In this document: piece after piece, positions 24,909 to 38,838 of the stretch
How the letters are laid out: every line of letters starts with the position of its first letter
Numbering within the stretch: position 1 is the stretch's first letter
Assembly: GCA_017411435.1 (NCBI GenBank)
Contig: JAFQQD010000024.1
Location: 1-44,517 of the forward strand
Direction of reading: 5' to 3'
Origin: Clostridia bacterium
GTDB taxonomy: Bacteria > Bacillota > Clostridia > UMGS1883
Length of the DNA stretch: 44,517 bases
The notes under the pieces: generated by a model
Database searches by the model: none
What the model was told of the DNA's origin: nothing
The model's input: the letters and a program-made list of their open reading frames with translations, nothing else
Translations under genes and position numbers: made by a program

Positions 24909-25096
24909 GCTATGTGAAGTTTGCAGGAAAGTGGCGTTTCGCCTGCCGAAGGAGTAACACTCTCAGGAGCAATATTTGTAAAGACTGCATACGGATAGCT
25001 CTCCGGAGAAGTCCGCTTCTTGATATTAAAGAAGCAAAAGGATGCCGAAGGTGCAAGGCGCATTTATGCGCTAATCTCTCAGGCAAAAGGACGGAG
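24909..25096 (+). promoter_or_regulatory. Tandem glycine riboswitch
   Basis: Two glycine aptamers lie head to tail. Aptamer 1 (24909-24999) is closed by GCTAT/ATAGC and contains the core GCCGAAGGAGTAAC. Aptamer 2 (25000-25096) is closed by CTCCG/CGGAG and holds GCCGAAGGTGCAA and the canonical CTCTCAGGCAAAAGGAC. The 3' core of aptamer 1 (CTCTCAGGAGCAAT and onwards) departs from consensus. The downstream gene is an AGCS symporter, a known target of this class. Together with the promoter and terminator it fills the 428-base gap before the gene. Confidence 0.92.
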
Positions 25097-25128
25097 GTAT
25101 ACGGCAATATTGCTGTATTTACTGCGCG

Positions 25129-32309: not shown

Positions 32310-32553
32310 ACTTTATATAAAGGCTGTGACGAAGACAGTAGCAAAATTCAAAACGCAAAGCGAGTCGGGGATGGTGTAAGCCCGGTGCGGAGTAGGTTTT
32401 TGTGAATATCACTTCTGAGCCGCATCGCTGAACAACAAAAACAAGGTTTTACAGTAAGCGGTGACGGGCAGTTCCTCCGTTAAGGGAACGCATATGATGG
32501 TATGCTAATTAGGTGGTGCGATTACTTCGTCCTGATTAGGGCGAAGTTTTTTT
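32310..32553 (+). promoter_or_regulatory. T-box leader for ileS (Ile, AUC specifier)
   Basis: A tRNA-sensing leader. The distal Stem I signature is AGCGAG, then CGGG, GGTG and CCCG. The specifier codon ATC (32408-32410) lies in GAATATCAC. The antiterminator T-box AGGTGGTGCG is at 32511-32520. A 10-bp terminator stem follows (32524-32547, ACTTCG/CGAAGT ends) with a T7 run. Uncharged tRNA-Ile should stabilise the antiterminator and allow ileS expression. Confidence 0.93.
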
Positions 32554-32595: not shown

Positions 32596-35500
32596 ATGTA
32601 CAACAAGGTAGATACCACACTCAATTTTGTAGAAAGAGAAAAGAAAATCGGTGCTTTCTGGCGCGAAAACAATATCTTTGAAAAAAGTATTGAAAATCGT
32701 GCAAAGTGCGAAAGCTACACATTCTATGACGGTCCTCCGACCGCTAACGGAAAGCCTCATATCGGTCATGTTTTAACGCGCGTTATCAAGGATATGATTC
32801 CCCGCTACCGTACAATGAAGGGCTACAAAGTTACCCGTAAGGCAGGTTGGGATACACACGGACTTCCCGTTGAGCTTGAGGTTGAGAAACTTCTCGGCCT
32901 TGACGGTAAGGAGCAGATTGAACAGTACGGTCTTGAGCCTTTCATTTCAAAATGTAAAGAAAGCGTATGGAAGTACAAGGGTATGTGGGAAGATTTCTCA
33001 CAGACAGTAGGCTTCTGGGCAGATATGGATGACCCCTATGTAACTTATGAAAACGATTTCATTGAGTCTGAATGGTGGGCGCTCAAGCAGATATGGGACA
33101 AGGGTCTTCTCTATAAAGGCTTCAAAATTGTTCCTTACTGTCCCCGTTGCGGAACTCCTCTTTCATCACACGAGGTTGCACAGGGTTATAAGAATGTAAA
33201 GGAACGCTCCGCAGTAGTCCGTTTCAAAGTAGTAGGAGAAGACAGTTACTTCCTCGCATGGACAACAACTCCGTGGACACTTCCTTCAAATGTCGCTCTT
33301 TGCGTAAACCCCGATGATACCTACTGCAAGGTAAAGGCTGCTGACGGCTATACTTACTATATGGCAGAGGCACTCCTTGACAAAGTTTTAGGCAAACTTG
33401 CAACAGAAGATGCACCCGCGTATGAAATCCTTGAAACATATAAAGGCACAGACCTTGAGCATAAGGAATACGAACCTCTCTTTGACTGCGTAAAGCCTAT
33501 CTGCGAAAAGCAGAAGAAAAAAGGTCACTTCGTGACATGCGATTCATATGTTACAATGTCTGACGGTACAGGTATCGTTCATATTGCACCTGCATTCGGT
33601 GAAGACGATGCTCAGGTGGGAAGACGCTATGACCTTCCGTTCGTTCAGCTCGTTGACGCAGCAGGTAATATGAGTGAGGAAACTCCCTTTGCAGGACTTT
33701 TTGTAAAGGATGCAGACCCCAAGGTGCTCGTTGACCTTGACAGCCGCGGACTTCTTTTTGATGCTCCTAAGTTTGAGCACGATTATCCTTTCTGCTGGAG
33801 ATGTGACACACCTCTCATCTACTACGCAAGAGAGTCTTGGTTTATCAAAATGACAGAGGTTCGTGAAGACCTCATCCGTAATAACGAAACAATCAACTGG
33901 ATTCCCGAAACAATCGGTAAGGGCAGATTCGGCGACTGGCTTAAAAATGTTCAGGACTGGGGCGTAAGCCGTGACAGATATTGGGGTACACCACTTAATA
34001 TCTGGATTTGTGAATGTGGACATCAACATTCAATCGGCTCTATTGAGGAGCTTCGTTCAATGAGTGATAACTGTCCCGAAGAAATCGAACTTCACCGTCC
34101 TTTCATTGATGCAGTTACAATCAAATGTCCCGAGTGCGGAGGCGAAATGCACCGTACCAAGGAAGTTATTGACTGCTGGTTTGACTCAGGCGCAATGCCC
34201 TTTGCACAATGGCACTATCCCTTTGAAAACAAGGAAATCTTTGAAGAGAATTTCCCTGCAAACTTCATCAGTGAAGCAGTTGACCAGACAAGAGGCTGGT
34301 TCTATTCACTTCTTGCTATTTCGACCCTTATCTTCAATAAAGCACCCTATAAGAATGTAATCGTTCTCGGTCATGTTCAGGACGAAAACGGACAGAAGAT
34401 GAGTAAGAGTAAGGGTAATGCCGTAGATCCGTTCGATGCACTTGAAAAGCACGGTGCAGACGCTATACGCTGGTACTTCTATGTTAACAGCGCTCCCTGG
34501 CTTCCAAACCGTTTCCATGACGGTGCGGTAAGCGAAGGCCAGCGTAAGTTTATGGGTACACTCTGGAACACATATGCGTTCTTCGTGCTCTATGCTAATA
34601 TTGATCAGTTTGACGCTACAAAATATACTCTTGATTACGACAAGCTTTCCGTAATGGATAAGTGGCTTATTTCTAAGCTCAACACACTTGTAAAGACTGT
34701 AGACGAATATCTTACAGATTACAAGATTACAGAAAGTGCGCGCGTTATTCAGGAATTTACTGACGAGATGAGTAACTGGTATGTTCGCCGCAGTCGTGAA
34801 AGATTCTGGGGTAAGGAAATGACTCAGGACAAGATTAACGCGTATATGACACTTTATACAACACTTGTTACTCTCTCCAAGGTTACAGCTCCCATGATTC
34901 CCTTTATGGCGGAAGAAATCTACCGTAACCTCGTTTGCAGCATTGACAAGGATGCACCAATAAGTGTACATCTTTGCGATTATCCCGTATTTGACGAATC
35001 AAAGATTGACCTTGCTCTTGAAAAATCAATGGAAGAAGTTCTCGACATCGTTGTACTGGGAAGAGCCGCAAGAAACGCATCTGCTATCAAGAACCGTCAG
35101 CCTATCGGTAAGATGTATATAAAGGCAGAGGGCACACTTGACAGCTTCTATACAGAAATTATCGCAGATGAGCTTAATGTAAAGGAAGTTCTCTTTACAG
35201 ATGATGTTCGCGAATGTACAACATATAACTTCAAGCCTCAGCTTAAGACAGTCGGACCCAAGTACGGAAAGGTTCTTGGAGGAATCCGTGAATACCTTTC
35301 AAATGTTGACGGAAATGCTGCTATGGACGAACTTGAAGCAAACGGCAATATCAAATTCGAGGTAAACGGCGAAAGCGTTGTTTTGGAAAAGGATGACCTT
35401 CTTATTGAATCTGCGCAGGTTGAAGGATTTGCATCAGAAAGCGATTTCGGTATCACTGTTGTACTTGATACCCGTCTTTCAGACGAACTTATCGAGGAAG

Positions 35501-37873: not shown

Positions 37874-37909
37874 AAAGAGCCCCATTTTCTAAAATGGGGC
37901 TCTTTTTTT
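37874..37909 (+). terminator. Terminator after trpB
   Basis: Arms of about 14 bp (AAAGAGCCCC and complement) followed by a T7 run. Confidence 0.92.
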
Positions 37910-37916
37910 GTGATTA

Positions 37917-37945
37917 TTGACAAAAAATGTTGCGTGCGATATAAT
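37917..37945 (+). promoter_or_regulatory. Promoter for the structured leader / SGNH gene
   Basis: Perfect TTGACA (37917-37922) and TATAAT (37940-37945) with a 17-base spacer. Predicted transcription starts near 37952, exactly at the first base of the outer stem of the leader. Confidence 0.85.
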
Positions 37946-37951
37946 AAAAGT

Positions 37952-38107
37952 GCGACACAAGTGAATATTTACAACCAAATTGGTACATTTTAATTAGATA
38001 AAAATGTACTGCTCTTTTCGTGTACCTTTTTGGTTGTTCGAAAACTTGTGTCGCAGCAATTGGAGTTGTGCATTTTTTGGTGCGCGGCTTCGGCTGCGCA
38101 CTTTTTT
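37952..38107 (+). promoter_or_regulatory. Structured leader RNA with terminator (riboswitch candidate or small RNA)
   Basis: Nested perfect stems: outer 11 bp (37952-37962 with 38044-38054), middle 9 bp (37971-37979 with 38029-38037) and inner 9 bp (37983-37991 with 38001-38009), with an alternative GGTAC/GTACC pairing (37982-37986 with 38022-38026). A GC-rich terminator with TTCG loop (38080-38101) and T6 follows. The 3' strand of the outer stem plus AGC (38048-38057) can also pair with the terminator's 3' arm (38093-38101), so the folds may be mutually exclusive. I match it to no known riboswitch class. It may instead be a free-standing small RNA. Confidence 0.65.
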
Positions 38108-38124
38108 ATTTTAGGAGAGAGACT

Positions 38125-38838
38125 ATGAAAATCAGAAAAAGGTATCTAATTATCGCATCTATCGTGACTATATTAAGCATAGTTGCTTTTAGTGTATTGT
38201 TTTTTCACGAAGGTTATGACGACAAAATTTTGTCAAAACTCGGACTTAAATCACCGGAGATAAAAAGAAACTGGACTATTGTTTCCTGGAATAGTTGCCT
38301 TAAACAACTGAATTACGATTCCGATGTTGCTTTTTTTGGAGATTCAATCACCCAAGGCGGAGATTTCCGAACATATTTTCCAGACACAAAAATCATAAAC
38401 TTAGGGTGCTCCGGAGACGACATTGTCGGTATGACCCAAAGAGTATCGATGTTAAAAAATACATCTCCGGAAAAGGTGTTCATTATGGTTGGAATAAATA
38501 GTCTGACAAATATGAACAGCACAATTTGTTTAGAAGCATATTCAACCTTATTAACTTCTGTAAAGAAAGCAGTTCCAAAAGCAGAGATTTATGTGCAAAG
38601 TGTTCTTCCGATCTCAGAAAAAAAAGAAAAAACACTTTTTTGCAGTAACGCCACTATAAAGAAATTTAACAAGGAAATAAAGAAATTATCTGAAGAAAAT
38701 AAAATGACATATATTGATTTGTATTCCGTCTTCGCACAAAACGAACAAATGAATCCAAACTTAAGTACGGATGGCTTGCATCTTAATTCTAATGGCTATG
38801 AGGTCTGGAAAGACGCAATTACGGATTACATAAATTAA
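38125..38838 (+). CDS. SGNH/GDSL hydrolase, membrane-anchored
   Basis: A 237-residue esterase-like protein. The N-terminal hydrophobic segment (about 6-26) is a signal anchor. SGNH blocks are FFGDSIT (catalytic Ser), LGCSGDD (block II), MVGINSL (block III, Asn kept) and DGLHLNSNG (Asp and His). Many relatives remove acetyl groups from surface polysaccharides; the substrate here is not predictable. Codon use is visibly more A-rich than in neighbours, hinting at later acquisition. AGGAGAGA precedes the ATG at 38125. The gene lies behind a structured leader and terminator. Confidence 0.85.
   Translation: MKIRKRYLIIASIVTILSIVAFSVLFFHEGYDDKILSKLGLKSPEIKRNWTIVSWNSCLKQLNYDSDVAFFGDSITQGGDFRTYFPDTKIINLGCSGDDIVGMTQRVSMLKNTSPEKVFIMVGINSLTNMNSTICLEAYSTLLTSVKKAVPKAEIYVQSVLPISEKKEKTLFCSNATIKKFNKEIKKLSEENKMTYIDLYSVFAQNEQMNPNLSTDGLHLNSNGYEVWKDAITDYIN

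Follow-up and report, generated by a model that had tools for sequence, protein, structure and literature searches.

What is the structured RNA encoded directly ahead of an SGNH hydrolase gene at positions 37952–38107 of the window (the whole 44,517-nt stretch of Clostridia bacterium DNA analysed here), and how might it act on that gene? The most probable answer, to which we assign a probability of about 0.76, is that it is a cis-acting transcription-attenuation leader with a riboswitch-like layout, belonging to a large and apparently undescribed RNA family of Clostridia.

All features of the locus lie on the forward strand. A sigma-A-type promoter, TTGACA-17-TATAAT, occupies positions 37917–37945 (−35 box at 37917–37922, 17-nt spacer, −10 box at 37940–37945) and reaches a motif score of 12/12, in agreement with the perfect promoter of the original prediction. 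The canonical +1, 7 nt past the −10 box, is position 37952, exactly where the 11-bp perfect stem P1 (37952–37962/38044–38054) begins. The P1-closed domain (37952–38054) is supported by fold, conservation and compensatory changes, and contains the two further perfect stems that had been anticipated, P2 (ACAACCAAA/TTTGGTTGT, 37971–37979/38029–38037) and P3 (GTACATTTT/AAAATGTAC, 37983–37991/38001–38009), as well as a stem P2b (37982–37987/38021–38026). The intrinsic terminator, including the T-run, spans 38079–38107, with the 5′ arm at 38079–38091, the 3′ arm at 38093–38101 and T6 at 38102–38107; as expected, it is followed by a ribosome binding site, AGGAGAG (38113–38119), and the ATG at 38125. 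The gene (38125–38838) encodes a lipase-like SGNH/GDSL hydrolase of 237 aa (PF13472, E = 1.7e-24) with a hydrophobic N-terminal segment. The minimum free energy of the 159-nt RNA is −62.9 kcal/mol, compared with −33.7 (sd 3.4) for shuffled sequences (z = −8.6), and none of the 200 shuffles was as stable. The gene 5′ of the promoter closes with its own terminator-like hairpin (37874–37905); hence, the leader and the SGNH gene form an independent unit. Elsewhere, the window contains a T-box leader (32317–32537; 93.4 bits, threshold 93) located 5′ of a 1048-aa isoleucyl-tRNA synthetase-like ORF, and a glycine riboswitch aptamer (24993–25104; 52 bits).

Neither the region 37952–38107 nor the RNA in 20 relatives matched any family of Rfam 15 at the curated gathering threshold, and a permissive scan gave weak matches only (one, for instance, scored 20.8 bits where 90 were required); a known Rfam class was therefore rejected. 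When 98 relatives were searched by DNA similarity alone, 29 genomes proved to carry comparable stretches, frequently more than one each and before different genes. The family search was based on a covariance model, R1. In the genome of the window it yielded seven candidates, of which five had E < 1e-3. Across the order, 26 of 28 genomes were matched, with 2–26 copies each, and across the class, 97 of 391 genomes (about 25%) and 57 of 223 genera. The model is specific, since, of 299 genomes drawn from across the phylum, the window's own was the sole match at E ≤ 1e-6. The conserved-motif pattern was found in at least 119 stretches of named genomes, mostly gut and rumen Oscillospiraceae, Ruminococcus, Monoglobus and other Clostridia MAGs. 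Searches of open-access journal papers for secreted-protein, BspA and Ruminococcaceae leaders gave no equivalent, and the human-microbiome set of 3161 RNA candidates (PMC8040213) could include the family in unnamed form. The family is real, widespread and apparently undescribed, with strong structural evidence behind it and a coherent regulon. The absence of an Rfam match, the size of the family, the compensatory changes and the fixed position before genes support the proposal that the leader is a riboswitch-like attenuator outside the known classes.

The anatomy of the RNA is conserved in the family. An extended −10 element, TGnTAnnnT, stands 5′ of the RNA in 171 of 195 members and ends exactly 6 nt before P1 in 154 of those, with a −35 box, TTG(A/C)(A/C)A, located at −35; with this fixed spacing, P1 begins at +1 family-wide. 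Double changes are observed at 10 of 10 counted pairs of P1 (83 members), and position 3 of the stem is GC in 103 members, CG in 35, AT in 25 and TA in 14. Conserved unpaired stretches adjoin P1 and P3. Two stronger elements were overlooked in the original prediction, namely a pseudoknot between the apical loop and the linker, and an antiterminator between the linker and the terminator 5′ arm. The pseudoknot, which joins the A-rich apical strand to the linker after P1, shows double changes at 5 of 10 pairs in 83 members, and one of its pairs is UA in 31 members, CG in 28 and UG in 19. Its covariation score is 0.421, compared with 0.175 for shuffled and at most 0.073 for slid controls, the pseudoknot being absent from the covariance model and the alignment not fitted to it. 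The stems are also kept at the hydrolase gene itself. Among 98 genomes, only one further homolog reached E ≤ 1e-20, an SGNH ortholog with 49% identity from a different family of the order, and it has the same RNA as its leader; P1 is changed from GCGACACAA to GTCACACAA with the partner strand altered to match, and matching changes occur in the pseudoknot and the antiterminator. Maintenance of the structure, with compensatory changes, before orthologous and other genes argues for an attenuator. The ATG-like triplet of the linker is not conserved across the family, and a short coding leader was rejected.

The exchange of pairing partners involves segment a, the 5′ strand of P3 (GTACATTTT, 37983–37991); segment b, the apical strand AAAAATGTACTGCTC (38000–38014); segment a′, the linker GGAGTTGTGCATTTTT (38062–38077); and the terminator arms, b′ (5′) and c (3′). 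Segment b can pair with a in P3 or with a′ in the pseudoknot, and a′ can pair with b or, in the antiterminator, with b′. Duplexes within the same molecule were better than those with cross-partners for a:b (p = 4e-25), b:a′ (p = 2e-24) and a′:b′ (p = 2e-21), with phylogenetic relatedness left in, while the control pairs a:b′ (p = 0.88), b:b′ (p = 0.37) and a:a′ (p = 0.23) showed no partner specificity in the same test. Two coherent states would result, a:b with a′:b′ (read-through) and b:a′ with b′:c (termination); the former would be the default, because b′ emerges before c in the order of synthesis. For the window RNA, the energies are −22.8 kcal/mol for the antiterminator tail, −18.8 for the terminator alone and −16.1 for the pseudoknot duplex. 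Over 182 members, the antiterminator and the terminator are near-isoenergetic (means of −16.1 and −16.2 kcal/mol), and the minimum-free-energy fold of the tail contains the antiterminator in 101 and the terminator in 81. A terminator between promoter and gene is hence accompanied by a mutually exclusive antiterminator, as in attenuators. The switch had originally been sought in the pairing of 38048–38057 with the terminator 3′ arm (38093–38101, one bulged T). This pairing is present in the window (−14.6 kcal/mol), but family-wide, the pairing of the P1 3′ arm with the terminator 3′ arm shows only weak partner specificity (−10.2 for own and −9.2 for cross partners; 118/182), and it was dropped as the main switch in favor of the strand exchange between a, b, a′ and b′.

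According to the proposed mechanism, transcription from the strong promoter would begin with the 5′-terminal base of P1. By default, P3 (a:b) would form and a′ would capture b′, so that polymerase enters the gene (ON). Pairing of b with a′ in a pseudoknot across P1 would let the terminator b′:c form, and transcription would stop (OFF). An input, perhaps a small molecule, would set the choice by stabilizing or destabilizing the P1/P2/P3 domain, and the genomic copies would mainly control secreted, surface and cell-wall proteins and AbrB/SpoVT-type regulators. What is observed are the elements, their co-variation, their position and the regulon; which way the switch goes, what its input is and that it operates in cells are inferred. 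A fixed +1 at P1 and tandem promoter–RNA units are unusual for metabolite riboswitches and count against this explanation.

The genes begin close to the RNA, with a start at most 60 nt past the T-run in 118 of 195 members and mostly after 14–45 nt. A separate promoter would hardly fit, if at all, into this gap, which contains little beyond the ribosome binding site, so that the gene must be reached by read-through. Signal-peptide-like N-termini were found in 85 of 104 downstream genes (82%) and 71 of 424 other ORFs (17%; p = 4e-36) and, at the same loci in a non-redundant set, in 33 of 44 and 49 of 243, respectively (p = 3e-12). The count covered downstream genes encoding 100 aa or more; the size of the enrichment is approximate, as the signal-peptide calls rest on a crude hydropathy rule and the genes are partly related. 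Domain assignments (Pfam, NCBIfam) for 122 downstream genes include BspA-type LRR proteins (28), copper amine oxidase N-domains (7), AbrB/SpoVT-type regulators (5) and SLH domains (3), and M23 proteins, CHAP proteins and GDSL lipases also occur 3′ of the RNA. A leader before an SGNH hydrolase is therefore a correct description of the window copy, but the element is not SGNH-specific and serves secreted-protein genes regulon-wide. Small cysteine-rich proteins of about 60–83 aa with the motif LTPGN/LIPGN..GKDC.GN are encoded directly 3′ of the RNA at five loci (L007, L010, L013, L017 and L149). Tandem copies, mostly with their own promoters and standing before one gene or none, were noted at ten loci (L058, L059, L101, L129, L155, L162, L174, L177, L187 and L191).

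Not all members are cis leaders, since 26 of 195 (about 13%) have no sense gene with a recognizable ribosome binding site within 150 nt. For some of these, the gene is frameshifted or farther away; several occupy gaps that hold no gene in the sense direction, one example in the window's genus being the space between convergent thrS- and hrcA-like genes. Such members, along with the own promoter, fixed +1, strong terminator and tandem copies, would suit a stand-alone small RNA, with the terminated transcript of about 155 nt as the product and an adjoining gene that is incidental. This alternative, raised in the original prediction, fits a minority of the family and is quite improbable for the window copy, given the closeness of gene starts to the T-run, the strong enrichment of exported proteins downstream and the co-variation of the antiterminator pairing, for which a plain small RNA would have no need. 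Several stand-alone members carry, about 15–35 nt past the T-run and in one case 114 nt past it, a trailer that contains (T)GTCGCCAAACA or a similar sequence and precedes a second terminator-like hairpin; a trailer together with the lack of a nearby sense gene was noted at L035, L036, L037, L045, L101, L129, L174, L254, L255 and L257. The trailer is the reverse complement of the P1 3′ arm and linker of GCCAAACA-type leaders, which would fit an RNA-sensing attenuator, where a trans-encoded antisense RNA binds the P1 3′ arm and a′, blocks the antiterminator and causes termination in a pT181-like manner. Within a genome, the trailer is often predicted to pair most strongly with a GCCAAACA-type leader in trans (trans vs. 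own pairing of −47.8 vs. −30.3 in G025, −38.6 vs. −34.5 in G077 and −26.0 vs. −15.2 in G002), but trailers are able to pair in cis too (own mean −23.9 vs. −19.9 for others). In the window's genome (G000), contig C54 contains, at about 35094–35200 (L279 1448–1600), a consensus promoter followed by ~45 nt antisense to the AbrB-type leader of this genome, with a predicted duplex of −42.3 kcal/mol (shuffled −15.0, sd 2.9). The same stretch pairs with the window leader at only −23.7, and an exact 15-mer search of 28 genomes gave no separate antisense locus for the window's GCGACACAA type, all matches being at family members. Antisense control is thus rather unlikely to set the switch, and is a rival or a second layer, not the main explanation. 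The C54 promoter is apparently divergent from an XRE-type regulator gene and lies near ribosomal-protein genes; 3′ of the antisense stretch, the sequence resembles the end of an IS3-type element.

It is also doubtful that the family forms an RNA-only chromosomal network, in which secreted-protein genes carry the four-strand terminator switch and stand-alone copies gate an antisense trailer that shuts sister leaders. If this were true, an RNA-sensing attenuator class, not a metabolite sensor, would coordinate the secretome of gut and rumen Clostridia. An RNA-binding antiterminator protein, rather than a small molecule, setting the switch is somewhat unlikely, though the conserved unpaired stretches by P1 and P3 could be protein sites and a single regulator would be in keeping with one regulon of many targets. 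The LicT/SacY antiterminators use short RAT hairpins, and the layout of the present RNA is unlike them. A mobile repeat, MITE-like or phage-derived, would account for the many copies per genome, some in tandem, but is highly improbable: the exact pattern had no matches in 2.9 million viral contigs, P1 is internal and not at the ends of the element, and the compensatory evolution, fixed gene distance and functional bias of the genes speak against it. A phage or MITE origin was rejected.

The attenuator leader can be compared with several known systems. With terminating pseudoknot riboswitches (preQ1, SAM-II), it shares a mutually exclusive pseudoknot, antiterminator and terminator in a 5′ leader and conserved unpaired nucleotides; it differs in having no Rfam match, a secreted-protein regulon, an RNA start exactly at P1 and a fixed promoter spacing. 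The family thus appears to resemble a pseudoknot-controlled terminating riboswitch in mode, class membership not being claimed. T-box leaders also rely on competition between antiterminator and terminator, but no T-box match covers 37952–38107, and the downstream genes are not aminoacyl-tRNA related. As in pT181-type attenuators, antisense pairing with the leader could favor termination here, and antisense candidates exist for one leader type; however, this family is chromosomal and multi-gene, and its trans-encoded antisense RNAs are predicted ones, with none found for the window's leader type. Stand-alone trailer-bearing members resemble the riboswitch-controlled ncRNAs EutX and Rli55 in that a switch would gate RNA output, but the predicted output is antisense to sister leaders and not an ANTAR-protein sponge. 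In gene context, the SLH motif (Stav et al. 2019, PMC6429828) comes closest among published candidates; its 80 examples extend to Synergistaceae and Negativicutes, and about 60% stand before SLH-domain genes. Both are orphan cis-regulatory RNA candidates found in Clostridia before cell-surface protein genes; in this comparison of gene context and taxa, SLH domains occur in 3 of 122 genes here.

The family would be a widespread, apparently unnamed class of regulatory RNA, present in about 25% of the sampled Clostridia genomes, with up to 26 copies in one. It would join surface adhesins, cell-wall enzymes and AbrB-type regulators in one regulon in largely uncultured gut bacteria, and naming the input of the switch would reveal a signal that governs their secretome.
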